Source: Hahella chejuensis KCTC 2396 (GTDB lineage Bacteria > Pseudomonadota > Gammaproteobacteria > Pseudomonadales > Oleiphilaceae). From it: a DNA stretch of 64,000 bases. Below are positions 5,615 through 64,000 of the stretch, piece by piece. Position 1 is the stretch's first letter. Every line of letters begins with the position of its first letter. The notes below the pieces were generated by a model, which saw nothing but the letters and a program-made list of their open reading frames with translations, did not search any database and was not told where the DNA came from. The stretch lies in assembly GCF_000012985.1 (NCBI RefSeq), contig NC_007645.1, forward strand, positions 5,106,581-5,170,580. Direction: 5' to 3'. The translations under genes were made by a program, and so were the position numbers.

Positions 5615-5641
5615 ACGCTTAAGGCAGTCTTCAAAAGCGTT

Positions 5642-5669: not shown

Positions 5670-5708
5670 ATTTGCTGAAAACACTAAAGAAAAACCACTT
5701 CCGAAGTG

Positions 5709-5737
5709 TTGACCTTTAAATTAAAGGTCATTATTAT
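5709..5737 (+). promoter_or_regulatory. Sigma70 promoter of tRNA-Asn with embedded palindrome
   Basis: TTGACC (5709-5714) and TATTAT (5732-5737) are spaced by 17 bp, a near-consensus sigma70 promoter ending 21 bases before the tRNA. The spacer is almost wholly occupied by a perfect inverted repeat, TGACCTTTAA-A-TTAAAGGTCA (5710-5730), which could be an operator. Confidence 0.75.
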
Positions 5738-5758
5738 ACGCGCCACTAACGGTTTCAT

Positions 5759-5834
5759 TCCCTGATAGCTCAGTTGGTAGAGCAAATGACTGTTAATCAT
5801 TGGGTCGCTGGTTCGAGTCCAGCTCGGGGAGCCA
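5759..5834 (+). tRNA. tRNA-Asn (anticodon GTT)
   Basis: This 76-nt sequence folds as a standard cloverleaf. The acceptor stem TCCCTGA pairs with TCGGGGA (one T-G pair). The D stem is GCTC/GAGC, and the anticodon stem AATGA/TCATT encloses the loop CTGTTAA, giving anticodon GTT. The variable loop is GGGTC and the T arm is GCTGG-TTCGAGT-CCAGC. CCA is encoded (5832-5834). It has its own promoter upstream and terminator downstream, so it appears to be a single-gene transcription unit. Confidence 0.98.
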
Positions 5835-5839
5835 AATTT

Positions 5840-5866
5840 AAAAAGGCTGGTTTTACCAGCCTTTTT
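5840..5866 (+). terminator. Rho-independent terminator after tRNA-Asn
   Basis: AAAAAGGCTGG (5840-5850) pairs with CCAGCCTTTTT (5856-5866) across a 5-nt loop, ending in a T run only a few bases past the tRNA CCA end. Confidence 0.93.
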
Positions 5867-5952
5867 TATTGCCTGAATTAAGCCCTCTTTTTATACACAC
5901 CATCGGTCGACGAGAAGAATACCTCCTCGCCCACCAACAAACAACCTCACAA

Positions 5953-6669
5953 TCAGACCGACTCAACCTCTTTGACGATTTGCTGCAATGCATCGAGAGG
6001 ATTTAACGCCCGGGTAATAGGCCTTCCCACGACCAAATATGAGCTCCCATCAGTAATCGCCTGAGCTGGAGTAACAATTCGCGTCTGATCATCCGCCGCT
6101 GCCGCCGCAGGCCTGATGCCAGGCGTCACCAAACAAAACTCCTCACCGTGCGCACGGCGCAACAATGGAGCCTCCTGCGCAGAACAAACTACGCCATCCA
6201 TTCCACTACTTTGCGCCAAGACCGCAAGCCTGCCAACCATCTCTTGGGCTGAGCAGGGAAACCCTATCTCGACGATCTCCTCATCACTCAAGCTGGTTAG
6301 CATCGTAACAGCAATCAGCAACGGCGCATGCGACTCTTGCTCCAACACCTCACGACACGCCTCCATCATTCTTCTACCACCGGACGCATGCACATTCACC
6401 ATCCATACCCCCAAACCAGCCGCCGCTTTCACCGCCTGCGCCGTCGTATTGGGAATATCATGAAACTTAAGGTCTAAAAATACCTCAAAACCGCGCGCCT
6501 GCAACTGCTCAACTATAGCGGGCCCAAATGTTGTAAACAGCTCTTTGCCAACCTTAAGCCGACATAAACCTGGATCAAGTTTGGCGACAAACTCATCAAG
6601 CTGCTTTCTATCAGAAAAGTCCAAAGCCACTACGACTCTTGGCCCACCAACCATCGTCTCACCTTTCAC
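5953..6669 (-). CDS. pyrF: Orotidine 5'-phosphate decarboxylase
   Basis: PyrF converts orotidine monophosphate to UMP, the last step of de novo pyrimidine synthesis. The protein has 238 residues. The catalytic D-K-x-x-D array is seen in FLDLKFHDIPNTTAQAV, with an upstream lysine in LKVGKELFTTFG and the phosphate-binding end LVVGRPITRALNP. The first ATG gives MKGETMVGGPRVVVALDFS; the second ATG (6654) is a possible alternative start and would trim five residues. It follows lapB by 43 bp. Linkage lapA-lapB-pyrF is common in gammaproteobacteria, so this is the end of that operon. Confidence 0.97.
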   Translation of the reverse strand: MKGETMVGGPRVVVALDFSDRKQLDEFVAKLDPGLCRLKVGKELFTTFGPAIVEQLQARGFEVFLDLKFHDIPNTTAQAVKAAAGLGVWMVNVHASGGRRMMEACREVLEQESHAPLLIAVTMLTSLSDEEIVEIGFPCSAQEMVGRLAVLAQSSGMDGVVCSAQEAPLLRRAHGEEFCLVTPGIRPAAAAADDQTRIVTPAQAITDGSSYLVVGRPITRALNPLDALQQIVKEVESV

Positions 6670-6712
6670 TCATATCACCTATTACCATTATCCAGCCAGT
6701 AGCCATACAGAC

Positions 6713-7873
6713 TTACACCCAAGGCAACGGCTTCACCACACCCCACTTTTTGCAACTGGGGCACTGCCAGTGCAAATGACGCCCCGAAAAGCCGCAACTT
6801 TCACATAAATAAGAGTGATTCTTTTCAAGAAGCGCCTCCAGCACTCCTTTCACAATCATAATCCAACGTTTGGGCTCAGGGTCCGCATAAGGCCCCAACA
6901 ACACCAGCAACGCCTTCACTCCACCAAGCGTGGGATGAGCATTCAATTGCTGCAAAAGAAATTCTATCGCTTCCTCGGTATTCTCATTTTCATTAAGCGC
7001 GCCAGACAACGCGATCATTACTTTTGCTGACGGCTGCAGTTCCCACATTCTTTGGAGTATTTTCAGCAGTCGCTCCCGCTCGTTGAGCTTTTCGCATATC
7101 TCTCTCACCAACCCAACCACTTCCGAGAGAAACACCGGATTCTGCTGCTCAATACGCTTCAGTTCCGCCAACGCCTCAGGATACTGCTCCGTAGCGACAC
7201 ACACCTGAGCCACCTGAATACTCGCCCGAGCACAAAACTTGTCATACGTTAGCGCTTCTCGAAGATGACGCGTCGCATCCGAATATTCCTTGCGTCGCAT
7301 GCTGCGCTCAGCCATCTCACAACAGTATTGAGCCAGCCGTATTTGCACCTCTCGATCACGCTTCACGTCCAGCGTCAAGGCGCGCTCACGGGCAACCCCC
7401 CACTCCTTTTCGTGCTCGTATATCTCGAGAAGGCACTCAGTACTGAGCTTACGCCACTGCCGGGACGCCGTCAGCTCAATAAAGAGAGCTTCCGCCCTGT
7501 CGTACAGGCCGACAAACATATAGTCCTGCGCCAACTCATAGGTGAGCTGCTCACCGTGTTTGATTCTCGCATCTGGATGCGAAAGAAGATTCTGATGGAT
7601 CGCCGTCGCTTTTTCGATTTCGCCTTTGCGACGAAAGAAGTTGGCGATTGAAAGATGAAGCTGGACCGTGTGCTGATTTATTTCCAGCTCCTGAACAAAA
7701 GAGTCCAGAGTCGGCGCATCATACGCTTCAAAAAGATACTGCAAGGACTTTGGATATTCGCCGCCCCGCTTGATGGCTCTGGCAGTCTGGCCAACTCGCC
7801 CCTGAATGAAACAAATCAGCCAACCGATGCCTATTGCGACGGCAATTAACAACAATTGGCCAAGATATTCCAT
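6713..7873 (-). CDS. lapB: Lipopolysaccharide assembly protein B
   Basis: LapB (YciM) adapts the LpxC deacetylase for FtsH proteolysis and so limits LPS synthesis. The 386-residue protein begins with a membrane anchor (about residues 5-23, LLLIAVAIGIGWLICFIQG). TPR helices cover about 45-340. It ends in a rubredoxin-type metal site, CESCGF and CPSCKKWG, with CxxC pairs near residues 357 and 373. This order is the LapB signature. It lies six bases after lapA, with which it acts in the inner membrane, and ahead of pyrF. Confidence 0.97.
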   Translation of the reverse strand: MEYLGQLLLIAVAIGIGWLICFIQGRVGQTARAIKRGGEYPKSLQYLFEAYDAPTLDSFVQELEINQHTVQLHLSIANFFRRKGEIEKATAIHQNLLSHPDARIKHGEQLTYELAQDYMFVGLYDRAEALFIELTASRQWRKLSTECLLEIYEHEKEWGVARERALTLDVKRDREVQIRLAQYCCEMAERSMRRKEYSDATRHLREALTYDKFCARASIQVAQVCVATEQYPEALAELKRIEQQNPVFLSEVVGLVREICEKLNERERLLKILQRMWELQPSAKVMIALSGALNENENTEEAIEFLLQQLNAHPTLGGVKALLVLLGPYADPEPKRWIMIVKGVLEALLEKNHSYLCESCGFSGRHLHWQCPSCKKWGVVKPLPWV

Positions 7874-7879
7874 AAGCCC

Positions 7880-8164
7880 TTATGATTTGCTGGCGACAAC
7901 CTGCGTAGATGACTTTACGGAGCGATCACGCCCTTTTTTACCGAATATTTTCAACTTTAGAACGGTCAAGCTGGTTACAGCCATTCCCATTAGAAACCCA
8001 ACAGCAAACGCCAATCCAATCAGAATTGAAACATTCACTGGCCCCGTATGGTAGAACAAGAGGTCTAACTCTAGCTTGGAATTGTTAAGCAATACAAACA
8101 CTACACCAACAACCACCATCAGGAAGATAAGGCATAGCAAAAAGATTTTTTTAAGCTTGGACAT
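7880..8164 (-). CDS. lapA: Lipopolysaccharide assembly protein A domain protein
   Basis: This small 94-residue inner-membrane protein has two hydrophobic segments, residues about 7-29 (IFLLCLIFLMVVVGVVFVLL) and about 43-68 (NVSILIGLAFAVGFLMGMAV), and a basic cytoplasmic tail. It matches the LapA (YciS, DUF1049) family and sits six bases before lapB, the canonical pairing. LapA supports LapB function in balancing LPS and phospholipid synthesis. The start is ATG at 8164. Confidence 0.93.
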   Translation of the reverse strand: MSKLKKIFLLCLIFLMVVVGVVFVLLNNSKLELDLLFYHTGPVNVSILIGLAFAVGFLMGMAVTSLTVLKLKIFGKKGRDRSVKSSTQVVASKS

Positions 8165-8274
8165 TAGCGCACCCGAACCGGTCTAATTGGGTGCACTATC
8201 TTACCATACCTGGATTTGATGTCAGGCATAGAAAAACGTGCACTTACAATTAATTAGCGGTTTGACGCCGGCTA

Positions 8275-8571
8275 TCAATATCCGGCTTTGAGACTTGCGT
8301 TAACCTCATCTCTCAATTCCTTACCAGGCTTGAAGTGCGGCACATACTTCGCAGGAAGATGAACAGTCTCACCTGTTTTGGGATTTCGCCCTACCCGTGG
8401 AGCGCGATAGTGGAGACTGAAACTGCCGAATCCCCGTATTTCTATACGCTGCCCCTGGGACAGAGATTGTGACATGTACTCTATGATCGTTTTAACCGCG
8501 AGCTCAACGTCTTTTATCGAAAGTTGTGGTTGTTTTTGCGCAATAATCTCGACTAACTCTGATTTGGTCAT
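8275..8571 (-). CDS. ihfB: Integration host factor beta subunit
   Basis: IhfB pairs with IhfA to form a sequence-specific DNA-bending protein used in recombination, replication and transcription. The 98-residue protein has the HU/IHF fold. The arm motif is [20 protein letters not shown], with the intercalating proline in RNPKTG, and [14 protein letters not shown] precedes it. The start [10 protein letters not shown] is the normal IhfB start. The gene lies between the rpsA terminator and lapA, the conserved rpsA-ihfB-lapAB order. The terminator suggests it has its own promoter in 8572-8630. Confidence 0.97.
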
Positions 8572-8630
8572 AGAAGCTTCCTTATCGTAGCTTTCGTCAG
8601 AAGTTTAGTTAAAGATTTAAAAAAACACAA

Positions 8631-8657
8631 AAAAAACGGGCATATAGCCCGTTTTTT
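8631..8657 (-). terminator. Rho-independent terminator after rpsA
   Basis: On the minus strand the stem AAAAAACGGGC pairs with GCCCGTTTTTT across a 5-nt loop, 22 bases past the rpsA stop, ending in a long T run. The mirrored A run makes it potentially bidirectional, but only minus-strand genes flank it. Confidence 0.9.
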
Positions 8658-8679
8658 TAGAGAATATATCTAAGAGATA

Positions 8680-10359
8680 TTACTGCTGTTGCTGCAACTG
8701 CTCTTTGATCAGATCACCGATAGTGGTCGGACCTTGAGCTTCAGTTTGCTTCTCTTTGACGTCGCGAATCGCCTGCTTCTCTTCATCAATGTCTTTAGAC
8801 TTGATGGAGAGGTTGATCACGCGGTTCTTACGGTCAACGCTGATGATTTTCGCTTCTACTTCGTCGCCTTCTTTCAGCACGTTGCGAGCATCTTCAACTT
8901 TGTCACGGCTGATTTCAGACGCCTTCAAAGTCGCTTCAACGTCGTCGTTTAGAGCAATCACAGCAGCTTTAGCGTCAACAGACTTAACCGTACCGGTAAC
9001 GATAGAGCCTTTCTCGTTCAATTGAGTGAACTCAGCGAACGGATCGCTCTCCAACTGCTTGATACCCAGAGAAATGCGCTCACGCTCAGGATCGATAGAC
9101 AGGATTACTGTTTCCAGATCGTCGCCTTTCTTGTACTTGCGAACAGCTTCTTCGCCTGGCTCGTTCCAAGAGATGTCGGACAGGTGAACCAGACCGTCAA
9201 TGCCGCCTTCCAGTCCAAGGAAGATACCGAAGTCAGTAATAGACTTGATCTTACCGGAGATACGGTCACCCTTGTTGAACTTACCAGAGAATTCTTCCCA
9301 AGGATTAGCGTGGCACTGCTTGATACCCAGGGAAATACGACGACGCTCTTCGTCGATATCCAGAACCATCACTTCCAGCTCGTCACCCAGTTGAACAACT
9401 TTAGATGGGTGAATGTTCTTGTTGGTCCAATCCATTTCTGAAACGTGGACCAGACCTTCAACACCTTCTTCCAGCTCAGCGAAGCAGCCGTAATCAGTCA
9501 GATTGGTGACGCGCGCAGTAACGCGTGTGTTCTCTGGATAACGCTCTTTAATAGCAACCCATGGGTCTTCACCCAGTTGCTTCAGACCCAGAGATACGCG
9601 GTTACGCTCGCGATCGAACTTCAATACCTTAACGGTAATTTCGTCACCAACGTTAACGATTTCGCTAGGATGCTTGATACGCTTCCAAGCCATGTCAGTA
9701 ATGTGCAACAGACCGTCAACACCACCCAGATCCACGAACGCGCCGTAGTCAGTCAGGTTCTTAACGATACCCTTGACTTCCATACCTTCCTGCAAAGTCT
9801 GCAGCAGAGCGTCACGCTCAGCGCTATTTTCAGCTTCCAGAACAGCACGACGTGAAACAACTACGTTGTTACGCTTCTGATCCAGCTTGATAACTTTGAA
9901 TTCGAGATCCTTTCCTTCCAGATGCGCCGTGTCGCGAATCGGACGCACATCTACTAAGGAGCCAGGAAGGAATGCGCGGATGCCGCCCAGTTCAACAGTG
10001 AAACCACCTTTGACCTTGCCGTTGATAACGCCGTTAACAACTTCGTTTGCTTCGAAAGCTTTTTCAAGATCTTTCCAGGCTTCCGCGCGCTTCGCTTTTT
10101 CGCGAGACAGGCGGGTTTCGCCAAAGCCGTCTTCAACTGCGTCGAGAGCAACCTCAACTTCGTCGCCGACTTGCAGATTCAGTTCCCCTTTCTCGTTCAG
10201 GAACTGTGCTACAGGGATTACACCCTCGGACTTAAGGCCTGCGTTTACAGTAACCCAGTCTTCATCGATATCAACCACTACGCCCTTAACGATAGAGCCG
10301 GGTTTCATATCAATTTGTTTTAAACTTTCTTCAAAAAGCTCAGCAAAGCTCTCGCTCAT
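8680..10359 (-). CDS. rpsA: 30S ribosomal protein S1
   Basis: S1 binds mRNA leaders at the 30S subunit and is needed to start translation on structured messages. The 559-residue protein has six S1 (OB-fold) repeats, recognised by recurrent cores such as [41 protein letters not shown] and [21 protein letters not shown]. The start [21 protein letters not shown] is the family start, preceded by CAGGAAA eight bases upstream. It is separated from cmk by 135 bp that probably hold its own promoter, and from ihfB by a strong terminator. S1 usually represses its own translation through its leader. Confidence 0.99.
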
Positions 10360-10494
10360 TGTGTTTCCTGTTGAACATTTTCATCCGCGCGGCCAGCAAG
10401 CACGGTCTGTTCGATTAAAATCTTAATTCGGGCATTACTGGCATACTCCCGAAAAAAGATCACCGGTTAATTAATTTACCGCAGTGACGGACAC

Positions 10495-11184
10495 TCAGGA
10501 TTGACGGGAAGACCAGATCTGGAGTACTTTCTCCAACACCTCATCCACCGAAAAGTCAGAAGTATCAAGGACTACGGCGTCATCCGCAGGTCGCAGAGGA
10601 GCGTTTGACCGATTCATGTCACGCTCATCGCGTTCCTTTATCTCATTTAAAAGGTGCGAAATTTTAACACTCTCGCCTTGCTGCTTCAACTGATCATATC
10701 TTCGCCGCGCCCTCACTTCGGCGCTTGCGGTCATAAATATCTTACATGGGGCGTCAGGAAATACGACCGTCCCCATATCGCGCCCATCGGCCACCAACCC
10801 CGGAGCGGACTGAAAATCCCGCTGCCGCTGCAACAAGGCGGCTCGCACCAAAGGATACGCGGCAACCCGCGAAGCCATAGCGCCACAGGTTTCCGTCCTG
10901 ATTTCCAGAGTCACGTCGTCGCCCATTAAAATAACGGACACCGGCTGACCGGGAGTTCTCGCTTCAAAGCGCACATCCAAGGTTTCAGCGACCTTCGCTA
11001 CAGCGTTTTCATCCGCCAAATCAACGCCCTGTCGCTCAGCGCTCAAGGCGGTCAGGCGATACAGTGCGCCGGAGTCCAAAATATTCCATCCCAACGCCTG
11101 CGCAGTAAGCTGCGCAATGGTCCCCTTACCTGAACCTGAGGGACCATCAAGGGTGATGACAGGAATGCCGGAGCTCACCTTCAT
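10495..11184 (-). CDS. cmk: Cytidylate kinase
   Basis: Cmk phosphorylates CMP and dCMP to the diphosphates. The 229-residue protein has the P-loop [12 protein letters not shown] near residue 16, the CMP-site motif [15 protein letters not shown], and the lid region [13 protein letters not shown]. The length is normal for the short bacterial form. Its start overlaps the stop of the tyrA-aroA fusion by four bases (ATGA), so coupling is likely. The order aroA-cmk-rpsA is widely conserved in proteobacteria. Confidence 0.98.
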
Positions 11185-13397
11185 GCCGTCTCCTCAGCCC
11201 GAAGATTAAAACCAACCTCATTCGCCAAAGCAGTGAACCCCGGGAATGATGTAGCGACGTTGGCGCAATCTTTAATAACAATAGCGCCGGTCGCTCTCAA
11301 AGAGGCCACGGCAAACGCCATTGCAATACGGTGATCGCCATGACTATCCACTGTGCCGCCGCCAATTTCAGCGCTGCGCAACACAATACCATCTTCTTTC
11401 ACTTCACTGCTGACGCCTAACGCAGCCAAGCCATCAGCCATGGTTTGAATACGGTCGCTCTCTTTGACGCGCAGCTCTTCCGCGCCACTCAGAACAGTTT
11501 CTCCCTCAGCGCACACCGCTGCGATAAACAGGACCGGAAACTCATCAATGGCCAAAGGCACCTGCTCCTCTGGAATACGAATTCCTTTCAAGGGAGCATA
11601 GCGCACACGAATATCCGCTACCGGCTCGCCGCCCACTTCTTTGTGGTTAGATAGCTCAATGTCGGCGCCCATCATTTTAAGAATACTAATTACTCCAACC
11701 CGAGTCGGGTTGACGCCCACATGACGCAAGGTCAGGTCTGACCCAGGAGTAATGCTCGCAGCAACCAGGAAAAAAGCCGCGGAAGAGATATCAGAAGGGA
11801 CGTCAATTTTGGTGGCGCTCAGCTTATGTCCGCCCTTAATCGTCACCTTGGAGCCATTTACATCTACAGGATAACCAAAACCACGCAGCATTCGTTCGCT
11901 ATGATCACGAGTTGGCGCAGGCTCTGTCACCGAGGTTTCCCCCTCCGCATAAAGACCTGCGAGGACCAGACTGGACTTTACCTGGGCGCTGGCGACAGGC
12001 ATATCATAATGAATACCATGAAGTCTGGAGCCGCCCTTAATTTTGACCGGAGGGCGCCCACCTTCAGAAGTGGAAATCTCCGCCCCCATTTCCCGCAACG
12101 GCTTTGCAACACGCTCCATAGGGCGTTTGGACAAGGATTCATCACCAGTGAGTTCGACATCGAACGACTGCCCGCTCAACAAACCTGCAAGCAAACGCAT
12201 GGAGGTTCCAGAGTTCCCCAAATACAATGGCCCTGGCGGCTGCTTCAGACCATGCATACCCACGCCATTTATTGTTACCGAGCCACGGTCAGGCCCCTCA
12301 ATGACGACCCCCATATCCCGGAACGCCTGCAGGGTGGCCAGAGCATCTTCCCCTTCAAGAAAACCTTCAATTTCCGTAACGCCTTCCGCCAGCGAACCCA
12401 ACATGATGGAGCGGTGGGACATCGATTTATCTCCGGGCACGCGAATATCGCCGCATACCGGACCGCCTTTCCCGGCAACATAGGTCACATTGTTAGCCAT
12501 ATCAGTCTTGTAAGCCTTTCCTTCAAGCATTTTTGTGAAATGTTCGCGGGCCGCCCGGGCCCGGGTGAACACACCAAGTAAAGTTTGTCCGTCCCCATCA
12601 GCAATAGCGTTGCGCAGCTTTTTTAAATCCGCATCGAACGCATTCAGCACTTTCAGCACCGCGTCCCGGTTGGTCAGGTACACATCCCGCCACATCACCG
12701 GATCGCTGGCGGCAATACGGGTGAAGTCCCGAAAACCGCCCGCTGCATAGCGAAATATTTCTTTATTATCGTCCGCCCCCGCCAGCGTATCGACCAGCGA
12801 AAAGGCGATCAAGTGAGGCAGATGACTGGTTGCAGCCAACACCTCATCATGATGAGCCACCGACATGAAAAGCACTTCAGCCCCCATGCCACGCCACAGA
12901 GCCGCCACCACCCCCAGCGCCTGGGAGTCCGTCACCGGAAGCGGCGTCAATATGGTTTTGTGATTCTCAAACAGAGCACTATTGGCGGCCTGAACGCCAC
13001 TCTTCTCAGAGCCGGCGATAGGATGCCCCAACACAGCATTTGCCGGCATTTCACCAAATACAGAGACAAAGGCTTTTTCTATTTCGCCTTTAACACTCCC
13101 TACATCGGTAAGGATGTGATCGCTCCGCAAAGCGGGCTTCATTTCCTCCAACACTGGCGCAACCGCTCCCACCGGCACAGCCAACACGATAACATCCGCC
13201 CGTGAAGCGAGAGTGACAAGATCCGGGGCAGACTCATCAACCACCCCCATACGCACGGCTAACGCAGCCTCAGTATCGCGCCGGTCATAACCAATTACCT
13301 TCTCCGCCAAACCGCGTTCTTTCACAGCTTTGGCGAGCGAACCGCCGATCAGACCCAGCCCGACAACGGCCAAACATTTAACTTGGGATTGCAACAT
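11181..13397 (-). CDS. tyrA-aroA: Fused prephenate dehydrogenase / EPSP synthase
   Basis: This 738-residue bifunctional protein of aromatic amino acid synthesis has two domains. Residues 1 to about 290 are a TyrA-type dehydrogenase oxidising prephenate, with the Rossmann motif [17 protein letters not shown] and [14 protein letters not shown]. Residues about 300-738 are AroA, 5-enolpyruvylshikimate-3-phosphate synthase, with [18 protein letters not shown], the substrate motif [16 protein letters not shown] and [18 protein letters not shown] joint TyrA-AroA polypeptide is known in pseudomonads and relatives. It lies 111 bp after pheA and overlaps cmk by four bases. In pseudomonads a hisC paralogue often sits between pheA and tyrA; none is present here. 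Confidence 0.96.
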
Positions 13398-13508
13398 TAT
13401 TAATCAGGCGCGTTTGACGGCCATGTCCGTAAAAAATATAAATTGAAACGCCCTTAAAGAGCCAAGACATCACAAAAGCCAAACTTCTGAGACCAGCAGA
13501 TGGCGCGC

Positions 13509-14606
13509 TTAAAGCACGCCTTTGGGATAGGACCCCAGACATCGCACGTCGAGAGCATCCCGGGACAACTCCTGAATCGCCGCACCGACCTCTGGCAGGT
13601 CTTTATGGCCGATAAAGTCCACAAAGAAGTGATAACGACGCGCGCCACTCAGGGCCGGGCGCGAATCAATTCTTGTCAGGCTCAGATTTTGACGATGAAA
13701 CACACCCAGCATCTTGTACAGAGCGCCCGGCTCGTCGCGAATGGTAACCATTAGAGATGTTTTGTCATCCCCACTTGGAGGAGCCGAATTTTTACCAATA
13801 ATCAAATACCTGGCGATCTGATCTGGATGATCTTCGATATTTTTCGCCAGAACTTTCATACCATACAGCCTGGCGCAGTGCTCACCAGCCACCGCCGCCG
13901 CATCCTGGCGTTCAGACGCCCTTTTTACAGCGTCCGCATGACTCGGAACCGCAATGCGCTCCACTCCCGGCCATCTTTCGTCCAGCCATTGCCGACACAA
14001 AGAAAATGACTGCGCCAAAGAATAAACAACCTTGATATCAGCGGCGTCCACTTGCTCTGGCGCAATTAAGAAGTGGTGAGTACGCACTTCCACTTCGCCA
14101 CATATTAGCAAAGGCGAATTAACAAACACATCAAGCGTGTGACTTATTACCCCTTCATTAGAGGTTTCCACCGGGACCACGCCGTAGTGAGCAGACCCCG
14201 CCTCAACCTCTCGGAAGACCTCATCAATAGCGTAATGAGGCAAGCAAACGCCGGAGTGCCCAAAATGCTTGAGCGCGGCGGCATGCGTAAAGGCGCCTTC
14301 CGGTCCCAGAAACGCAATATGTAAGGGCGCCTCTAAAGCAAGACACGCCGACATAACTTCCCGGAACAGCCTGGCCACTTCTTCATCACTTAAAGGCCCT
14401 GGGTTCTCGTGCATGATTTTCCGCAAAACCTGAGCTTCCCGCTCCGGGCGATAAAAGACGACATCCTGCCCTGAATTGCCGCGCATTTTTACTTCCGCGA
14501 CACTTTGCGCGCACTTGGCTCGTTCGCAAATCAACGCCAGCAACTGACGATCAATCTGGTCTATTCGTTCACGCAGCCTGGCGAGTTCGGTCTGCTCAGT
14601 GGTCAT
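13509..14606 (-). CDS. pheA: Chorismate mutase / prephenate dehydratase (P-protein)
   Basis: This bifunctional enzyme converts chorismate to prephenate and then phenylpyruvate, committing flux to phenylalanine. Its 365 residues contain a chorismate mutase domain (about 5-85; LRERIDQIDRQLLALICERA), a dehydratase domain (about 92-270; FLGPEGAFTHAAALKHFG and VVPVETSNEGVISHTLD) and a C-terminal ACT domain (about 275-360). The ACT domain has the GALYKMLGVF and SLTRIDSRPA motifs that bind phenylalanine for feedback control. It lies three bases downstream of serC, so co-transcription is certain in practice. No leader peptide or attenuator stands out. Confidence 0.97.
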   Translation of the reverse strand: MTTEQTELARLRERIDQIDRQLLALICERAKCAQSVAEVKMRGNSGQDVVFYRPEREAQVLRKIMHENPGPLSDEEVARLFREVMSACLALEAPLHIAFLGPEGAFTHAAALKHFGHSGVCLPHYAIDEVFREVEAGSAHYGVVPVETSNEGVISHTLDVFVNSPLLICGEVEVRTHHFLIAPEQVDAADIKVVYSLAQSFSLCRQWLDERWPGVERIAVPSHADAVKRASERQDAAAVAGEHCARLYGMKVLAKNIEDHPDQIARYLIIGKNSAPPSGDDKTSLMVTIRDEPGALYKMLGVFHRQNLSLTRIDSRPALSGARRYHFFVDFIGHKDLPEVGAAIQELSRDALDVRCLGSYPKGVL

Positions 14607-14609
14607 GAA

Positions 14610-15695
14610 TCAGGCATTCCTCCCAGCAAAATCTTGCATAAACCCAATCAGCGCATCCACCGCCTCTTCAGGCAATGCGTTATACAAACTGGCGCGCATT
14701 CCTCCAACCGAACGATGCCCCTGCAGATTAAGCAGACCCGCCCCTTCCGCCTCTTGCAGAAACTTCTGATCCAGGCGGTCATCTTTCAGTGTAAAGGGCA
14801 CATTCATCCAGGAACGACAAGACAGATCTATCGGGTTCGCATAAAACTCGCTGTCGTCTATGTATGAATAAAGTTTGTCAGCTTTGCGGCAGTTAATCGC
14901 CTCCATAGCCTGCACACCGCCTTTTCCTTTCAGCCACTTAAATACCAGGCCAGCCAAGTACCAAGAAAAAGTAGGCGGAGTATTGACCATGGAGTCGTTT
15001 TCACTGGCCACTTTATAGTTCAGCATAGTGGGCAGACTGTCGGAAGCATATCCCAGCAAGTCTTCCCGCACGATAACCAGCGTCAGGCCAGCGGGACCAA
15101 TATTCTTTTGGGCGCCGGCGTATATCACCCCGAAGCGACTGATATCCACGGGACGGGACAATATGGTGGAGGACATATCCGCCACCAAAGGCTTATCGCC
15201 TACGTCAGGAATATCGAGAAACTCAACGCCGCCAATTGTTTCATTGGGCGTATAGTGCACATAACCTGCGCTCTCGCTCAAACGCCACTCGCTACGAGCA
15301 GGAATGCAGGCATAGCCATTATCTTTGGCGGAAGCAGCGACATTTACCTTAAGGTAGCGCCCCGCCTCCGCAATGGCTTTCTTCGACCAGATACCCGTAT
15401 CGATATAATCCGCTTCGGCGCCGAGCTTCAGCAAATTAAGCGGCACAGAAGCGAACTGAGTGGCGGCCCCACCCTGCACAAAGAGAACTTTGTAATTGTC
15501 GGGCACAGACATCAGCTCACGAAAGTCACGCTCAGCTTCAACCGCCACAGCAACAAAATCGTCACTGCGATGACTCATCTCCATAATTGACAGACCTTTA
15601 CCCCGCCAATCGAGCAGTTCCGCCTGAGCCTGCAACAACACTTCCGTAGGCAGCGCGGAAGGGCCCGCGCAAAAATTAAACTTTCTATCAGCCAT
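14610..15695 (-). CDS. serC: Phosphoserine aminotransferase
   Basis: SerC makes 3-phosphoserine (serine pathway) and also serves pyridoxal phosphate synthesis. I place the start at ATG 15695, giving MADRKFNFCAGPSALPTEV and 361 residues. GGAGAG lies eight bases upstream and the family starts there. An in-frame ATG at 15722 would add nine unrelated residues. Seen: the PLP-lysine region IYAGAQKNIGPAGLTLVIV, the phosphate-site motif QGGAATQFASVP, and the C-terminal GHRSVGGMRASLYNALP. It lies 61 bp after gyrA and three before pheA, the conserved gyrA-serC-pheA order. Confidence 0.97.
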   Translation of the reverse strand: MADRKFNFCAGPSALPTEVLLQAQAELLDWRGKGLSIMEMSHRSDDFVAVAVEAERDFRELMSVPDNYKVLFVQGGAATQFASVPLNLLKLGAEADYIDTGIWSKKAIAEAGRYLKVNVAASAKDNGYACIPARSEWRLSESAGYVHYTPNETIGGVEFLDIPDVGDKPLVADMSSTILSRPVDISRFGVIYAGAQKNIGPAGLTLVIVREDLLGYASDSLPTMLNYKVASENDSMVNTPPTFSWYLAGLVFKWLKGKGGVQAMEAINCRKADKLYSYIDDSEFYANPIDLSCRSWMNVPFTLKDDRLDQKFLQEAEGAGLLNLQGHRSVGGMRASLYNALPEEAVDALIGFMQDFAGRNA

Positions 15696-15756
15696 ACAGG
15701 CCGCTCTCCGGTATTTGGTCAACCAAACTTCTTAGACAAGCCAACCGAAGCGAAAG

Positions 15757-18396
<2,640 letters not shown>

Positions 18397-18710
18397 AATA
18401 TAGCAATAACCTATTCTAGAAAGGATAGTTCGGTTCTTGTTCTACCCACAGTCTGTCCAAACCCTGGTTCGCTCGTTTTGCAGTCGTTGAACCCGGCGGG
18501 GAGTCAGTTCAAGCGGCATATAATCGCACACTCTTTACTCGACCAAGGGCTGCGCCACAAGCGGTCAAGTCTAGCATAGAAGGCGGCGGCAACGAAGTTA
18601 ATTAGGGTGAGAATAAGATATTTTTTAGGCGTTAAAGGCATTCTCCCGGGGACGAGAGAAGCAGGTTGGCGACGCGCATCAGCAGGCGCGCGCCAATCGT
18701 TTATAGCGAA
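18397..18710. other. Intergenic region upstream of gyrA
   Basis: This 314-bp gap lies between gyrA and the CBS protein and has no convincing reading frame. It should contain the gyrA promoter on the minus strand, but I cannot pin one hexamer pair with confidence. No clear T-tailed hairpin was seen. Confidence 0.5.
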
Positions 18711-19139
18711 TCAGGCAGACTGATGAAACCGCTGAGGGGCGACGAAGTCTGAAACAGCGCGCAGTACGTCCTTACGACTGATCTGCCCCACCAATTTTCC
18801 CTCTTCAACCACAGGAAACCGACGCCGGCGATTATTAATGAAGCGCTCACTCACCGCCAGAATATCTTCCTCCGGCCCGACAACATCCACATCCACGGTC
18901 ATATATTCAGCGACAGTGCCGCCCAAAGATTCATAGTCATAGTAACTGCCGCTCAGAATACTTTTCAGGCAGTCCACTTCCGACAGCATCCCCACAAGGT
19001 TTCCCCTGCCATCTACCACAGGAGCGCCGGAGATACTGTTTTTAAGGAGTTTATGAATCGCTTCAAACAACTCTGTTTCAGGGGAAAACACAACCAAGTT
19101 GGTTGTCATATAATCACGCACTTTCACGGATCGCAGCAT
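18711..19139 (-). CDS. Paired CBS-domain protein
   Basis: This 142-residue cytoplasmic protein consists of two CBS domains (about residues 8-62 and 80-133). Characteristic phrases are VRDYMTTNLVVFSPETELFEAI, PVVDGRGNLVGMLSEVDCLK and FPVVEEGKLVGQISRKDVLRAV. CBS pairs bind adenine nucleotides and act as energy or redox sensors, but stand-alone proteins like this have no assigned partner. The gene is isolated, with 163 bp to purU upstream and over 300 bp to gyrA downstream. Function is not known beyond likely ligand sensing. Confidence 0.9.
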   Translation of the reverse strand: MLRSVKVRDYMTTNLVVFSPETELFEAIHKLLKNSISGAPVVDGRGNLVGMLSEVDCLKSILSGSYYDYESLGGTVAEYMTVDVDVVGPEEDILAVSERFINNRRRRFPVVEEGKLVGQISRKDVLRAVSDFVAPQRFHQSA

Positions 19140-19302
19140 GGGACTCTCCTAAGGCAGGCATTTGCTGATGGTTATTGTTAACCGCCCTGTCAGCGTACTC
19201 CTTTCATTACACTGATACCTTAAAGATACGCCCATATGCCGGAAACGCCAACCAATGAGCCCGGAGCGAGCGCCCCGGGTTTGATGTCAGTCCAACATGA
19301 CC

Positions 19303-20157
19303 TTATTCAAATACGATGGTCTTGTTCTCATGAACAATCACCCGGTCTTCCAAGTGATAGCGCAAGCCCCGGGCAAGCACTTGTTTCTCTACGTCTTTCC
19401 CCAGCCGCACCATGTCTTCGATGGTGTCGCTGTGATTCACCCTGATCACATCCTGCTCAATAATTGGGCCTTCATCCAGATCCTGAGTGACGTAATGGCA
19501 GGTGGCGCCGATCAGCTTGACGCCACGCTTGTACGCCTGATGATAGGGGCGGGCGCCAGCGAAAGACGGCAGGAAGCTGTGATGGATATTGATAATGCGT
19601 CCCGTATATCTGTCGCACAGCTCCGGCGGCAGAATCTGCATGTAACGCGCAAGAACGATCACTTCCGCATCCAGAGCATCCACCAGTCGCTCAACCTCAG
19701 CAAATGCGACGGACTTGTCATCAGGGTCCACCGGCACGTGATAGTAGGGAATGTCATGCCACTCCACCATGCGGCGCAGGTCATCATGATTGGAGATAAC
19801 TCCGACGATCTCCCCATCCATCTCCTTTGCGTGCCAACGGTGCAACAAGTCCGCCAGACAGTGAGACTCCTTACTCGCCATCAGAACAATTCGCTTGGGT
19901 TGCTGCGAATCCGCCACATGCCAGCACATCTGAAACTCACGGGCAATCGGTTCGAACGCAATACGAAATGAGTTCAGATCAAAAGGGAGCGAACTCGCCT
20001 TTATCTCATTCCGCATATAGAACCAACCGTTGGTCGGGTCCGAATGATGGCTCGCTTCGGTTAGCCACCCATTATAAGTAGCCAGAAACGTGGTTACCTT
20101 CGCAACAATACCCACCCGATCAGGGCAGGCGATTACCAGTCGATATGTTCTTTCCAT
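19303..20157 (-). CDS. purU: Formyltetrahydrofolate deformylase
   Basis: PurU hydrolyses 10-formyl-THF to formate and THF, balancing one-carbon pools. The 284-residue protein has an N-terminal ACT regulatory domain (about 1-80; RLVIACPDRVGIVAKVTTFL) and a formyl transferase domain. The catalytic Asn-His-Asp set is in RIINIHHSFLPSFAGARPYH and VTQDLDEGPIIEQ. Length is normal. A GC-rich imperfect hairpin (about 19258-19280) follows the stop but lacks a T run. phhB lies 45 bp upstream on the same strand, so the two may be co-transcribed, and both act on pterin or folate compounds. Confidence 0.96.
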   Translation of the reverse strand: MERTYRLVIACPDRVGIVAKVTTFLATYNGWLTEASHHSDPTNGWFYMRNEIKASSLPFDLNSFRIAFEPIAREFQMCWHVADSQQPKRIVLMASKESHCLADLLHRWHAKEMDGEIVGVISNHDDLRRMVEWHDIPYYHVPVDPDDKSVAFAEVERLVDALDAEVIVLARYMQILPPELCDRYTGRIINIHHSFLPSFAGARPYHQAYKRGVKLIGATCHYVTQDLDEGPIIEQDVIRVNHSDTIEDMVRLGKDVEKQVLARGLRYHLEDRVIVHENKTIVFE

Positions 20158-20202
20158 TATTTTCCTACCAGCTGTGAGACGCCAGCGGGATGCGACAGAC
20201 CT

Positions 20203-20541
20203 CTATGCGTTAAAGACTGCTTCGCACCGCTTAGCCATCGCAAAGTCCAACTCATGCAGACCTTTAATAGTATGACTCCACCAGGTAACCCTGACCTTGC
20301 CCCACTCGGTCACCAGTTCAGGGTGGTGGTTAATTTCTTCGGCAATAGCGCCAACCTTGTTGGTGAACTCTAACGCCAAAGCGAAGTTTTTGAATTTGTA
20401 GTCACGGCTGATCATTTGCACGCCGTTACGCTCTTCCAAACGCCACTCAGGCACCTGACTCAAGTACTTCTCAAGTTTCGCCGGATCTACTTTTTCAGCG
20501 TCAGGTCTACAGGCCTCGCAACTTGGAATTGTATCGCTCAT
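20203..20541 (-). CDS. phhB: Pterin-4a-carbinolamine dehydratase
   Basis: This enzyme dehydrates 4a-hydroxy-tetrahydropterin formed by phenylalanine hydroxylase, allowing cofactor recycling. The 112-residue protein carries the family signature EEINHHPELVTEWGKVRV with the active-site histidines, then WWSHTIKGLHELDFAMAK. An N-terminal CEACRPDAEKV segment with two cysteines precedes the fold, as in several bacterial homologues. No phenylalanine hydroxylase gene (phhA) lies nearby in the window. Its neighbours are purU (folate) and fumarase. A role with a distant phhA, or in another pterin pathway such as molybdopterin, is possible. Confidence 0.94.
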   Translation of the reverse strand: MSDTIPSCEACRPDAEKVDPAKLEKYLSQVPEWRLEERNGVQMISRDYKFKNFALALEFTNKVGAIAEEINHHPELVTEWGKVRVTWWSHTIKGLHELDFAMAKRCEAVFNA

Positions 20542-20638
20542 GCTTTTTCTCCTTGTTTTGAATTAAGCGTTTGCCGGGGCGCTCGCCCCAGCGTCGCTGT
20601 AGCCTAACTCTACAAGAAAGAGATCGCCAACATTTATC

Positions 20639-22162
20639 TTAGCCGACTATTTTCACAGCGCTTTCAGCAATGCGCTTACGCCATTCCGCTGGACCGGTTT
20701 GATGCACAGACTCGCCGTTTACATCCACCGCCACGGTAACCGGCATATCTTTCACTTCGAACTCATAGATTGCTTCCATTCCCAGCTCAGGGAAAGCCAC
20801 GACATTGGAAGAACGAATCGCTTTAGAAACCAGGTAGGCGGCGCCGCCCACGGCCATCAGATAAACTGCTTTATTGTCGCGAATCGCTTCAATCGCCACC
20901 GGGCCGCGTTCGGCTTTGCCGATCATACCCATAAGACCGGTCTGCTCCAGCATAGTGCGAGTGAACTTATCCATACGTGTGGATGTGGTCGGCCCGGCAG
21001 GCCCAACCACCTCATCGCCCACAGGATCAACAGGACCTACGTAATAAATGAAGCGGTTATTCAAATCTACTGGCAAGGATTCGCCGCGAGCGAGCATATC
21101 CACCATTTTTTTGTGGGCGGCGTCACGGCCCGTCAGCATTTTTCCAGACAAAAGCACCGTATCGCCGGGACGCCAGGACGCGATTTCATCCCGTGTGACA
21201 GTATCCATATTCACTCGCTTAACGTTGGCGCCCACCTCCCAGGTGATTTCCGGCCACTCATCCAGATTGGGCGGCGTTTGCAATGCGGGACCACTGCCAT
21301 CCAGCACAAAATGCGCATGGCGAGTCGCAGCGCAGTTGGGAATGATAGCGACGGGCTTGTTGGCGGCATGGGTCGGATAGTCTTTTACTTTGACGTCCAG
21401 TACAGTTGTCAAACCACCCAGACCTTGCGCCCCGATACCCAACGCATTGACTTTCTCGAACAGCTCCAGACGCAACTCCTCGCTACGGTTAGCCGCGCCA
21501 CGCGCCTGCAAGTCCTGGATATCGATAGGATCAAGCAACGCCTCTTTGGCTAACTCCATTGCTTTCTCCGCCGTGCCGCCGATACCTATCCCCAACATGC
21601 CGGGCGGACACCAGCCAGCGCCCATCTTCGGCACCTGCTCCAGCACCCATTCTGCAACAGAGTCGGACGGGTTAAGCATCGCAAACTTGGACTTAGCCTC
21701 AGAACCGCCGCCTTTGGCCGCAACATGCACTTCGACTTTGTCGCCAGGAACGACTTTCATGTGGATGATAGCGGGGGTGTTGTCTTTCGTGTTCTTGCGC
21801 GCACCGTCAGGATCAGCCAGAACAGACGCCCGCAGAATATTGTCGGGATGCAGATACGCGCGACGTACGCCTTCATTAACCATATCCTCGACGCTCATGT
21901 TCGCCTCCCAGCGCACGTCCATTCCGATATTTAAAAACACAGTCACGATACCGGTGTCCTGACAGATGGGACGACGCCCCTCTGCGCACATGCGGGAGTT
22001 GATCAAAATTTGCGCCAGTGCATCCTTGGCGGCAGTGGACTCTTCGCGCTCATAGGCAGCATGAACCGCTTTAATAAAGTCGACGGGATGGTAATAGGAG
22101 ATAAACTGCAGCGCGTCGAATACGCTGTCGATGAGATCGTCTTGACGGATCACGGTGGTCAT
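20639..22162 (-). CDS. fum: Class I (iron-sulfur) fumarate hydratase
   Basis: This class I fumarase interconverts fumarate and malate with a 4Fe-4S cluster. The 507-residue length and a single polypeptide fit the FumA/B type. Conserved cysteine motifs are seen in GRRPICQDTGIVTVF, GAGWCPPGMLG and IPNCAATRHAHFVLDG. The C-terminal beta domain has GKMLTGRDAAHKKMVD and GPTTSTRMDKFTRTML. Oxygen-sensitive class I enzymes are often paired with a stable class II FumC, which is not in this window. The upstream 471-bp gap should carry its promoter; I see no clear FNR or Fur site. Confidence 0.97.
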   Translation of the reverse strand: MTTVIRQDDLIDSVFDALQFISYYHPVDFIKAVHAAYEREESTAAKDALAQILINSRMCAEGRRPICQDTGIVTVFLNIGMDVRWEANMSVEDMVNEGVRRAYLHPDNILRASVLADPDGARKNTKDNTPAIIHMKVVPGDKVEVHVAAKGGGSEAKSKFAMLNPSDSVAEWVLEQVPKMGAGWCPPGMLGIGIGGTAEKAMELAKEALLDPIDIQDLQARGAANRSEELRLELFEKVNALGIGAQGLGGLTTVLDVKVKDYPTHAANKPVAIIPNCAATRHAHFVLDGSGPALQTPPNLDEWPEITWEVGANVKRVNMDTVTRDEIASWRPGDTVLLSGKMLTGRDAAHKKMVDMLARGESLPVDLNNRFIYYVGPVDPVGDEVVGPAGPTTSTRMDKFTRTMLEQTGLMGMIGKAERGPVAIEAIRDNKAVYLMAVGGAAYLVSKAIRSSNVVAFPELGMEAIYEFEVKDMPVTVAVDVNGESVHQTGPAEWRKRIAESAVKIVG

Positions 22163-60828: not shown

Positions 60829-60971
60829 GAACTGCATTCTCAGATTAATCAAATTTATCGTAATGCGATCAGACAGGGAAAGTGACCATAGTTTTAGCAT
60901 TTGCCAAAATTATGGTAACCCGGGAAACATAAGTTTGGCAGAAATAAGTTAAAACCTACCAGCCTAAAAAG

Positions 60972-61013
60972 AAAAAGACCCGATATATCAATAGGCTTGA
61001 TTTATCGGGTCTT
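60972..61013 (-). terminator. Rho-independent terminator of the helicase gene
   Basis: On the minus strand a 17-bp stem with one mismatch (AAGACCCGATA then ATCAA; complements TTGAT and TATCGGGTCTT) closes a 5-nt loop, and the strand continues TTTTTCTTTTT. It lies about 37 bases past the helicase stop and would end that operon. Confidence 0.93.
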
Positions 61014-61049: not shown

Positions 61050-64000
61050 TCAGATTATCTTGCCGAATTCATTTACTTTATACACAGTAATTGTTGACTC
61101 ATAGCCCTCGTTCATCAAATTTGAAATACCGCCACTCAGCTCATAGACCACCGTTTCACTTGCCCCATCATTGTCGAGTAAAGTAAAAATAATTCGACGA
61201 TCGTGAAAGTCTTTCTTTTTTCTTACGGGGAAAACCTGCACGAGAACGTTCTTCAGGCCACATTCAATCTCTAACACCTGTTTTACAGATCGTTCGTACT
61301 CCCGATAGTCATCGCTATCTTCCATCAAACGGCAATCGACTGTTGTCTGTTCAATGTCTTGGGCAAGTGATTTAATACTTGCAGCCAAGACCTTTAGAAA
61401 TCGTAGCGTATTTGATGAAGCAGTATAGGGGTCTCGAATAGTCATCGCTTGAACAAACTTGCCCCGCATGCAACCGAATACGTCTTCAAAGTCTCTACGA
61501 TCCCCAGCATTGTATTTGTATACATTGATAGGTGCCCGAGCTCTGAAATAGCTAGCTTCATAACTATTGTTGTCGAAATCAGTTAGTAAACTTTCAACCA
61601 CTTTCGAAAATTTGGAAGGAGATAGTTTAAAGATTTCTCCAGTTAAAGAGTGGACATTAAGTGAAGTTAGACGGTTTTCGCAAAACCACAATTTGCCACC
61701 TTCATCAGAAGGATTGGCCATAGCAAGTGGAAGGCACAATAACTCAGAATCGTTAAGACTTGTTGATAAATATGAAACCGATAAAGCACCGTCTTTAATA
61801 TATGGCAACAGTACCTCTATTGCTCGCCTAAGTGATGTCGAAGTGTTCTCAAATCTCTCAGGCAATGGATTTAGCAATAGTAGTTTAATCTTTGTCGTAC
61901 TTAATAGATTAATAATCCATGAAATTTGTGAGACTTGGCTGTATTCATCATCGACTAGATGAGGCAATATTAGCGTCACCTCATTATATCCCTGCCAGCT
62001 GTCAACTAGTGCTGCTAGACTCGCATTCGAATCCAACACCGCGCCCAGCTTCTGCACAGGGTGTTTTATGGTCACATCTGCTAAAAGTTCCTCTAAATAA
62101 TCTATAGCTTCCCGTCTTCTAAAGGCATCCCAATGCTTCTGATTAGAGTAGTCGCAGATGCAGTTAACACACCCCGATTCGCATGCAGCAGAGCATCGTA
62201 GTCTTTCTAACATGCTTTTTAACAAGCCTGAAAAACCTATAGAGTCGAAAAGTCGCTTCACATATCCAGCGCCACCAGGAACTCCATCGTAAGCAATCAA
62301 TGTTAAGCAACCATTTTCAAATCGATGGAGACCACGTACTTCAGATACGGGTATATTTAGTGTGTCCACAATCGCCAGCCGCATTGCTTCCGATAGCGTA
62401 ACCGCGATACCAGATTTCAGCTCGACCCCTTCCTCAGTTGCTAAAATACTCAAAGGAATCTGGACAGGCTGATTAAGTCGGTAAATCACCACATCTGTGT
62501 GGTATTCGTGAGCCAGAGAGATTCTTTCTAAACGCGCAGTACTATTGCACCGTTTCCCAGTTTGAGGCACCTCATGTGATCTTGGACTTACTAATGAATC
62601 TGCAGGCGTCATAAAGTTGCAGTAGCTACAACGCCAATAACCGAGCTTTCTCATGCCCCTGTTAAGAACGAATAGCTTCCCATCTAATCCACAATCTGAG
62701 TATGCAGACATAAACGTCTTTTTGACTAAAGAGTGATCAGTATCTATGTAGCTTTCAAACGGCGGTACAACTATTAACTTTGCTTCATCTGCGGGAACGG
62801 ATCTTTTACGCGACGTAGTGGGATCTTTTCCTCGAGATTCCTTTAGTGCGGTGACGAAACCTTTGGGTTGTAGGAAAGAGATTGGTTGGTCATTTAACAC
62901 ATGCTGGCAATTCTCACACTCTGTTAGCCGATCCTCGAAGCATTCAGCAACATTTGCATGATTACAGTCGGAACAGATTGATACCACTCGGGTTGGCATA
63001 AATGCCCTGGGTGAGTAAGCCAAACCAGCACTGCGCCAGATCCTGCCATTAGCTATGACGTCAGAACCTGGTGCATACTCGGATATGCCTAATGAAGCAT
63101 CACGCACAAGCTCTATATCCGATTTTATATATTCATGCTTATATTCTCTTCTAGCCTGGGTTACCTCTAATGAAAGTGAGTGAATCGGAAAGCTGTATGT
63201 AGGAATCAGTCCATTTTCAGATAGTTTGGAAACTAAGTATTGGCCCAAATAGCTATCTCGCTGCTGTTTCCATCGGGAAAACTCTTTACTAGCATTATCA
63301 TCTCCGCCTGCGATTTTCTGTCTTGCTTGCTCCATCTTTTGTTGGTACCTACTGCAGCGGGTTTCGCAAAGCCACGCGAATTTCTCCATCTCATCAACAA
63401 ATACTTCTTGGATACGTTGCAATTGAGGCTTTAAGATCCCAGCCTCGTTTTTAGGTAGTGTATTTATTAGCGAATTGGCTTCATTCAAGGCAGCTTTACC
63501 ATCATCAGTTTCCAACCAAGCCTGCAATACTTTGCGAAACTCCTGGCTAAAGCCGTCAATGATTGCTGAGCCAAACAGATCAGCAAGCACAGGTGCCTTC
63601 AGCCGATCTTGTGCTACATTGGTCTGGAAAAACCTTGATAGCAATACGGAGATTTGATGGCGCTGAAAGATTGTCTTATTTGATAGACATACGGAAGGAT
63701 CAGCTGGAGACCTTTCCAGGTATTCCCTAAAGTTCGCGAACACCACACGATCATAATTGGAGTTTCTGGCAACCGTTACACAAAAAGGTGCTGCTTGCGC
63801 CCGACGTCCGGCCCGCCCGGTGCGTTGCTGATAATTGGCAATACCTGGTGGCACATTCAGATTCACAACCGCTTCAAGATCTCCCAAATCCACACCGACT
63901 TCCATGGTGGTCGTACAGCTAAGCACATTTATTTTTGAATCGAAAAACTCAGATTCAATGAATTCTCTCAGTTCTGTCGAGAGCGATGCTGTGTGCTCTC
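61050..64000 (-). CDS. Large SF2 helicase with DUF1998 and MIT_C-like C-terminus (5' end off window)
   Basis: The frame is open from the right edge to the stop at 61050, so about 983 C-terminal residues are seen and the start lies beyond 64000. An internal GTG at 63926 is not the real start: upstream codons continue the helicase fold ([16 protein letters not shown]). Next come [20 protein letters not shown] and helicase motif [17 protein letters not shown] (63800-63840). Zinc-type cysteine pairs follow (CSDCNHANV and CENCQHVL, 62900-63000; CSYCNF, near 62620). The DUF1998 cluster is [19 protein letters not shown] (62130-62205). The last 130 residues carry [19 protein letters not shown] and FHDRRIIF, a likely MIT_C phospholipase D-like domain. 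Such helicases belong to defence systems. AT-rich DNA suggests transfer. Confidence 0.9.

Follow-up and report, generated by a model that had tools for sequence, protein, structure and literature searches.

A divergent Druantia type III-like gene pair, probably horizontally acquired, in Hahella chejuensis

The minus strand at positions 61050..64000 of a 64,000-nucleotide stretch of the Hahella chejuensis KCTC 2396 genome (contig NC_007645.1, positions 5,106,581 to 5,170,580; hereafter the window) encodes the 3′ half, residues 985-1966 of 1966, of a DruE-like helicase, and this gene and the gene for an 1124-amino-acid protein directly upstream of it probably constitute (with a probability of about three in four) a divergent, horizontally acquired Druantia type III-like defence made up of two directly adjacent genes. 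This reading draws on the identity of the genes, the pairing of the two throughout a clade, the kinship of the helicase's end with phospholipase D (PLD)-like proteins and MIT_C, and the boundaries of the island that carries them, all of which were observed here. The original prediction, made from the letters of the window, had described the segment as a defence-type helicase with a DUF1998 domain, cysteine pairs and an MIT_C-like end, and as the last gene of an operon running past 64000, and these points were borne out.

The open reading frame (ORF) at 61050-63998 on the minus strand is real and belongs to a larger ORF of 1966 amino acids at positions 5167630-5173530 of the genome (G000:C1), which extends to window position 66950 and is preceded by further minus-strand genes. 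The complete protein matches the Pfam models DEAD (E 2e-17), Helicase_C (2.3e-13) and MZB (4.9e-11), the last being the current name of PF09369, formerly DUF1998. The fragment by itself retains Helicase_C, which corresponds to RecA2 (PF00271, E 1.1e-12, fragment residues 3-66, 63801..63992, minus strand), and the zinc-binding MZB domain (E 1.7e-11, fragment residues 535-614, 62157..62396, minus strand). The helicase motifs GTGSGKTE (115) and DEVH (262) are present, as is a ten-residue motif in the Helicase_C domain (1041-1050). Nine cysteines (C1326, C1329, C1345, C1348, C1441, C1444, C1468, C1594 and C1597) are invariant in six of six aligned sequences, that of H. chejuensis included, and the two pairs CSDC (from 1326) and CENC (from 1345), at 62907..62975 on the minus strand, form a probable zinc site. 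A very large YprA-like superfamily 2 (SF2) helicase with a DUF1998/MZB domain is the hallmark of Druantia, DruE, and such a protein is found here with MZB above its cut-off. Among the PADLOC models, the full protein matches DruE1 (614.9 bits, 1.2e-184) and DruE3 (568.0 bits, 1.6e-170), whereas the best model other than DruE reaches only 98.5 bits (1e-28).

The protein ends in a second PLD-like domain (61185..61493, minus strand), which is PLDa-like and accounts for the MIT_C match. The Pfam model MIT_C (PF16565) remains sub-threshold on the fragment (E 0.003; 17.9 bits, where Pfam's curated cut-off is 25) and also on the 353-residue tail alone (E 7.9e-4); it matches three of 16 DruE tails at E<=0.05, and when whole genomes were searched in six frames with this model (E<=0.001), that of H. 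chejuensis was not reported. Aligned in 16 rows, the DruE tails give a profile (A5) that matches MITD1 in the PDB (4a5z, 2ymb; E 1.7e-4) and residues 1691-2067 of the solved Druantia DruE, 9tu7 (E 4e-19). AlphaFold2 predicts a PLD-like fold for the tail, with a mean predicted local distance difference test score (pLDDT) of 81, and Foldseek places MITD1 at the top for this model (2ymb, E 5.2e-8; template modelling (TM) score TMt 0.65 for 4a5z), followed by phosphatidylserine synthase, phospholipase D and Tdp1 and, lower, by NucT and NgoAVII. Five columns of the alignment are invariant in 16/16 tails, namely a Pro, the Asp of an IRDPY motif (residues 1838-1842, 61425..61439, minus strand), His and the first Arg of an FHDRR motif (residues 1915-1919, 61194..61208, minus strand), which is a putative H-x-R active-site motif, and a Gly; the Tyr of IRDPY is nearly invariant. 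Judged by sequence, these are the motifs of the PLDa domain of DruE, known already from Druantia III, and the MIT_C-like domain is the second, predicted-active PLD-like domain of Druantia III DruE as presented in the available text of two papers (PMC12458937, PMC13192584). The H. chejuensis protein has two C-terminal PLD-like domains, a feature of Druantia III, according to the 9tu7 match and the predicted fold, and the last of the two is predicted to be active. Because the solved DruE 9tu7 carries the domain, the idea that the fusion of helicase, DUF1998 and MIT_C is new and defines a new system was dropped. What stands of the originally suggested variant or new system is the divergent Druantia III-like pair; the fusion itself is already published as the domain layout of Druantia III DruE.

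The evidence for pairing comes from the best 80 of at least 582 relatives in a scan with a DruE alignment, which served as the sample for both the tree and the counts. The tree, calculated by a quick method, has 80 rows aligned over 717 columns; from the 87 DruE ORFs found, six under 1380 amino acids were omitted and one (L080; L numbers denote loci) was dropped for coverage. H. chejuensis DruE lies in a clade of 12 of the 80 rows, with a support of 100 in the Shimodaira-Hasegawa-like approximate likelihood ratio test (SH-aLRT), together with sequences from Thiorhodococcus, a Desulfobacteraceae bacterium, Rhizobium, a Bryobacterales bacterium, two Verrucomicrobiota and five further rows of Rhodobacter kinship or from Alphaproteobacteria, so that the clade spans four phyla. 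In 11 of the 11 assessable clade members, druE is preceded by a gene of one and the same single-linkage family (E<1e-5), which adjoins or overlaps it; the partner of L059 is split in two ORFs, and L040, whose contig begins inside druE, was left out of the count. The best direct matches of the H. chejuensis partner are those of Thiorhodococcus L037 (22% identity, E 2e-66) and L059 (E 3e-64), and in L042, which is outside the tree and has a short DruE ORF, a 114-residue piece also matches (6e-5). A PLD tail is present in eight of the 11 assessable members. Identity to Thiorhodococcus is 22% for the partner vs 42% for DruE, by which measure the partner evolves faster than DruE.

The partner gene (L002:8532-11906) lies directly upstream of druE with zero gap, outside the window and out of sight of the original prediction. 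The protein has no Pfam match (E<=0.1) and no PADLOC match (E<=0.01), and its single NCBIfam match, MPN499, is sub-threshold (E 0.062). Scans with the single sequence were empty in 369 genomes of the class (its own excepted), genome contigs, plasmids and viral contigs, and are misses of method or sampling, because relatives of the partner emerged once those of DruE were fetched. The viral contigs likewise gave no match in a scan with the single DruE protein or with a DruH alignment. Homology to DruH is likely through an intermediate family. A profile of the H. chejuensis partner family (A2, 10 rows) matches a profile (A3) of 14 of 41 upstream proteins, which form a linkage family, associated with another DruE clade, that includes Mycobacterium L047, with E 1.5e-11 and a probability of 97% over 314 N-terminal columns, vs E 0.86-0.93 in reversed-sequence controls. 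A3 in turn matches the profile of canonical DruH (A7, nine rows) with E 2.9e-4 (probability 40%) and, with the N-termini alone, E 2.3e-5 (76%) vs 0.1 reversed. The predicted structure of the partner, with helices to residue 226, beta strands at 242-782 and helices at 792-1123, has an alpha-beta-alpha architecture with an immunoglobulin/fibronectin type III (Ig/FN3)-like core, as described for DruH, whose ends are helical and which contains three Ig-like domains (PMC13192584). Direct homology of the partner and canonical DruH is unsupported beyond this chain. The partner is best described as a diverged DruH-like protein whose membership in DruH is unproven.

Several observations weigh against this reading. 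The direct comparison of A2 and A7 is weak both at full length (E 0.082, probability 0.7%) and for the N-termini (E 0.0071, 5.5%, vs 0.57 for the corresponding stretch reversed). PADLOC models of DruH, 11 of which match the canonical DruH of L036, miss the H. chejuensis partner at E<=0.01 and four of four other proteins of its family at E<=1; the Mycobacterium L047 partner likewise has no PADLOC DruH match at E<=1. Confidence in the partner model is modest (pLDDT 67.7, predicted TM score 0.48), and the 50 fold matches listed for it, mostly tandem Ig/FN3 ectodomains with TM 0.06-0.13 of the query, include no DruH; DruH 9tud exists in the PDB sequence set and is not among the rows of this fold search. 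The H. chejuensis partner directly matches only five of the ten other clade partners at E 1e-5 (L037, L059, L043, L048 and L038), the remainder joining by linkage. H. chejuensis DruE does not group with canonical type III DruE, which forms a separate clade with SH-aLRT 100, in a tree of the quick kind with three canonical rows. It also scores higher with the DruE1 than with the DruE3 model, an order that is uninformative on type because the Mycobacterium DruE of L047 shows it too (607 vs 568 bits). Three of the 11 assessable clade members (L041, L058 and L061) have a DruE that stops after MZB, without a PLD tail. The nuclease-pocket mutant in the available text of PMC13192584, R1258, is distant in sequence from the tail, that text reports no H-x-R mutant, and it describes the C-terminal region as also mediating assembly, which C-terminal mutants affect.

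If the two genes do act as a type III-like pair, the 1124-residue protein would behave like DruH, sensing a product of infection and licensing the effector. The DruE-like helicase would load, as its family suggests, onto phage replication intermediates that contain single-stranded DNA (ssDNA), and the two PLD-like domains in tandem, the last of them carrying H-x-R, would cut DNA as the published E. coli DruE does, so that labour would be divided as in E. coli DruH and DruE. The invariant H-x-R is a putative catalytic motif. The E. coli DruE is reported to load on ssDNA with a 3′ polarity, to unwind DNA, to assemble and to cut long molecules, while E. coli DruH, which has a nuclease activity that depends on dimer formation, is the likely sensor; no stable complex of the two was seen in that study (PMC13192584). 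For M. smegmatis, an interaction of DruH with DruE is reported to be required for defence (PMC13316683). Of the two roles first proposed for the MIT_C-like domain, action on DNA appears likelier than targeting to membranes, because of the kinship with PLD and because DruE has been reported to cleave DNA.

It is unlikely that this domain serves in assembly or docking and is not a nuclease, the pair then blocking phage replication through helicase-driven assembly on ssDNA. The best fold match of the tail is MITD1, which is not a nuclease and is not known to be catalytic, and the alignment shows a single H-x-R motif instead of the HxK(x4)D of the HKD rule. In E. coli DruE, the C-terminal region is reported to bring about higher-order assembly, and defence is lost in mutants in which this assembly is predicted to be disrupted; the same paper, however, reports cleavage of long DNA by the purified enzyme (PMC13192584). 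The nucleases NucT and NgoAVII do appear lower in the same fold list, and Asp, His and Arg are invariant in 16 tails of distant lineages. Rather improbable is a working unit larger than the pair, comprising also the neighbouring genes for a metallo-beta-lactamase (MBL)-fold protein and a small membrane protein, or even the whole island. Four genes from the MBL gene to druE do lie on one strand, 0-17 bp apart, after a 156-bp gap with a promoter-like site. The MBL-fold protein matches PADLOC PDC-M48B (1.7e-94) and, more weakly, LmuA, RTasMBL and Avs1a, and the 211-residue membrane protein encoded after it matches Csx27 (8.5e-5); the two lie at L002:11924-13671. The MBL, Csx27-like and Hsd proteins are, however, unmatched at E 1e-5 in 12 other loci (11 of the clade and L042), an absence that is no proof, some flanks being short and the membrane protein small, whereas the partner precedes DruE wherever this is visible. 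A DNA-repair helicase of the YprA/MrfA type, carried on the island and unconnected with defence, is suggested by the SF2 core that the protein shares with YprA (6znp, E 7.4e-17) and by the MrfA zinc-binding domain, but it is very improbable for a protein of 1966 amino acids that is DruE-type by PADLOC, ends in a PLD tail, has a fast-evolving partner and restriction neighbours, and is absent in sibling species.

Compared with known systems, the locus resembles Druantia III of E. coli (9tu7-9tuc, DruE; 9tud, DruH; PMC13192584) in the order of the two genes with the partner directly upstream, in a YprA/DruE helicase with MZB and two C-terminal PLD-like domains, in a partner of about 1100 amino acids with helical ends and an Ig-like core, and in a type I restriction-modification (RM) system nearby. 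It differs in that its DruE has, over the aligned helicase core, about 25-26% identity with the canonical type III proteins of L035 and L036 and belongs to a separate, fully supported clade, and in that the PADLOC DruH models miss its partner. The N-terminus of the partner is homologous (E 1.5e-11) to that of Mycobacterium L047 and its relatives, and the pair arrangement is alike in the Druantia III-like branch (PMC12458937) and the mycobacterial DruH-DruE (PMC13316683); we infer from the genus, the partner size and the gene order that L047 is the published MSMEG_1253/1254 pair. The L047-type group differs in that most of its DruE in the sample end soon after MZB, without a long tail. Members of the Druantia III-like branch are said to carry PLD, Vsr or no nuclease, and the available text of PMC12458937 does not name the clade of H. 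chejuensis DruE, which may lie within that branch. The pair is therefore treated as a variant: it looks like a divergent branch of Druantia III and not a new kind of system, the partner gene being the divergent part.

Other known systems were set aside. Druantia I and II do not fit, no DruABCD- or CoCoNuT-type partners being found with PADLOC (E<=0.01) among DruE, the partner, the membrane protein, the MBL-fold protein and HsdR, and the tail being PLD-like and not Vsr-like. DISARM and Dpd, which the original prediction had also named, did not hold up: DISARM requires DrmA and DrmB on separate genes, where here helicase and MZB share one ORF, and no 7-deazaguanine synthesis genes, as Dpd/BRIGADE would have, are found by Pfam or NCBIfam among the island proteins scanned. 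ARMADA, an arrangement with a Vsr tail, was rejected as well, the methylase being closer to HsdM/MAD2 than to PglX, the tail PLD-like and a separate BrxHII gene absent among the island proteins scanned.

The pair lies at the end of an inserted island of about 20.5 kb, which is horizontally acquired and probably anti-phage. Its left junction falls at 60874..60875 of the window, by alignment with three sibling species in which the site is empty, and its right junction lies outside the window, near genome position 5187948. Both flanks were found in three of six other genomes of the genus (G003, G004 and G006), where they are 89-91% identical and 9-19 bases apart vs about 20,494 bases in H. chejuensis, and in G006 the insertion site falls between two ORFs; the helicase is thus not conserved at this site in relatives. 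The G+C content of the island is 0.457 (region 2301-22000) vs 0.583 and 0.571 in the flanks. Full-length DruE occurs in one of seven genomes of the genus, the other matches being partial helicases. A second helicase of H. chejuensis that is partially similar to DruE (G000:C1:3934512-3937478, plus strand, 1746-amino-acid open frame) occurs also in G003 and G004. No exact 11-mers are shared between the two junction regions compared, and no integrase was found among the island proteins scanned (ORFs of about 150 amino acids and up). All on the minus strand, the genes follow one another from 5′ to 3′ as an RtcR-like gene (L003:297-1868), hsdM, hsdS, hsdR, the 156-bp gap, the MBL gene, the gene of the Csx27-like protein, the partner and druE. 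The methylase matches HsdM/MAD2 far better than PglX and adjoins HsdS and HsdR. After the druE stop lies a terminator-like hairpin with a U-rich stretch (60975..61013, minus strand), found by RNA folding; its 60-nucleotide region has -23.8 kcal/mol (z -5.16), a stability equalled in none of 200 shuffles.

Expression of the island is probably under the RtcR-like CARF-sigma54 activator through sigma54-type promoters. The RtcR-like protein scores 319 bits with the NCBIfam RtcR model, under the equivalog cut-off of 650. Thiorhodococcus L037 has a homologue of 44% identity (3727-5292, minus strand), divergent and before the genes for ARPP-1, partner and DruE, and L094 has one of 41% (2-1273, minus strand) that is cut by the contig end; the other loci examined have none at E 1e-10. 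The textbook sigma54 consensus served as the search pattern and was tried after a similar stretch had been noticed before the MBL gene, so that the gap statistics are partly post hoc. The sole matches with one mismatch in these loci, one each in L002, L003 and L037 and correctly oriented (those of the island at G000 5178690-5178705 and 5185274-5185289), sit before the MBL gene, between rtcR and hsdM, and before ARPP-1, the latter two counting as pre-gene only with a start codon downstream of the start of the longest ORF. Mononucleotide shuffles of each gap yield a match in 3, 2 and 10 of 4000, and by eye two of the three sites keep GG-N10-GC, the MBL site being without the GC of the -12 element. 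The matches are unusual in position only and not in number: the island has two with one mismatch vs a shuffled mean of 0.7 (largest 3), and with two mismatches L037 has nine vs 10.1 expected and L002 four vs 12.7. Nine other clade loci add two more one-mismatch matches (L048 and L058). A tentative and somewhat doubtful alternative is that the pair represents a separate Druantia lineage, with a sensor diverged beyond detection, in which an RtcR-type CARF-sigma54 switch would let RNA damage gate the destruction of DNA; RNA ends that arise when a phage infects, such as those left by cleaved tRNA, would then switch on the type I restriction block, and the same signal the block of MBL, membrane protein and DruH-DruE. 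RtcR homologues head superoperons of type I RM and CoCoNuT, with Druantia III sometimes after them (PMC11090510), so that the arrangement of RtcR, type I RM and Druantia III as such is not new. The likeness, in the available text, extends to an RtcR-like gene in first place, type I RM next, MBL-fold and four-transmembrane proteins and Druantia III sometimes last, and the difference is that no CoCoNuT gene was found among the island proteins scanned. A literature search pairing Druantia with RtcR returned this paper and its preprint and no other.

Related loci show further arrangements. The tailless DruE is followed by a gene for 2036-2068 amino acids (L041:14929-21072, L058:13082-19285 and L061:15014-21121), which in L041 has no Pfam match and a PADLOC match at chance level alone, and which may provide the effector absent from these DruE. 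In an Akkermansiaceae locus (L075:1506-6333), genes for an N6-methylase (1206 amino acids) and a 430-residue protein without a Pfam match directly precede partner and druE, and in a Ruminococcus phage record (L034:7224-14674) partner-like and DruE-like genes lie between endolysin and exonuclease/polymerase genes. Cyanobacterial DruE-like proteins with a PLD-like tail (L031-L033, L057, L060 and L062) are preceded by a conserved gene for 307-312 amino acids, apparently another Druantia-like arrangement.

A related MIT_C/PLD-like end domain was also observed across BREX (BrxL), Zorya (ZorD1) and Druantia III. The MIT_C model exceeds its cut-off in five of 369 genomes of the class, at six places with open frames of 675-731 amino acids; the two places examined are BrxL by PADLOC (L024 and L026 are among the loci), and in BrxL the MIT_C match at the C-terminus is strong (145-180 bits), with DPY-type and H-x-R-type motifs. 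The PADLOC ZorD1 model matches seven of the 16 DruE tails. Relative to MITD1 (4a5z, 2ymb), the H. chejuensis domain differs in being fused to a helicase, and no MIT domain is matched in its protein. A search of the available papers did not find BrxL and MITD1 treated together, and the end domain of DruE, BrxL, ZorD1 and eukaryotic MITD1 is a testable evolutionary link.

At this locus PADLOC would see a DruE without a DruH. The published census of Druantia III rests on PADLOC calls (PMC13192584), and the number of Druantia III-like pairs of this kind in Pseudomonadota, Verrucomicrobiota and Acidobacteriota is probably underestimated. Because the partner changes faster than DruE, it would be the place to seek the infection signal.

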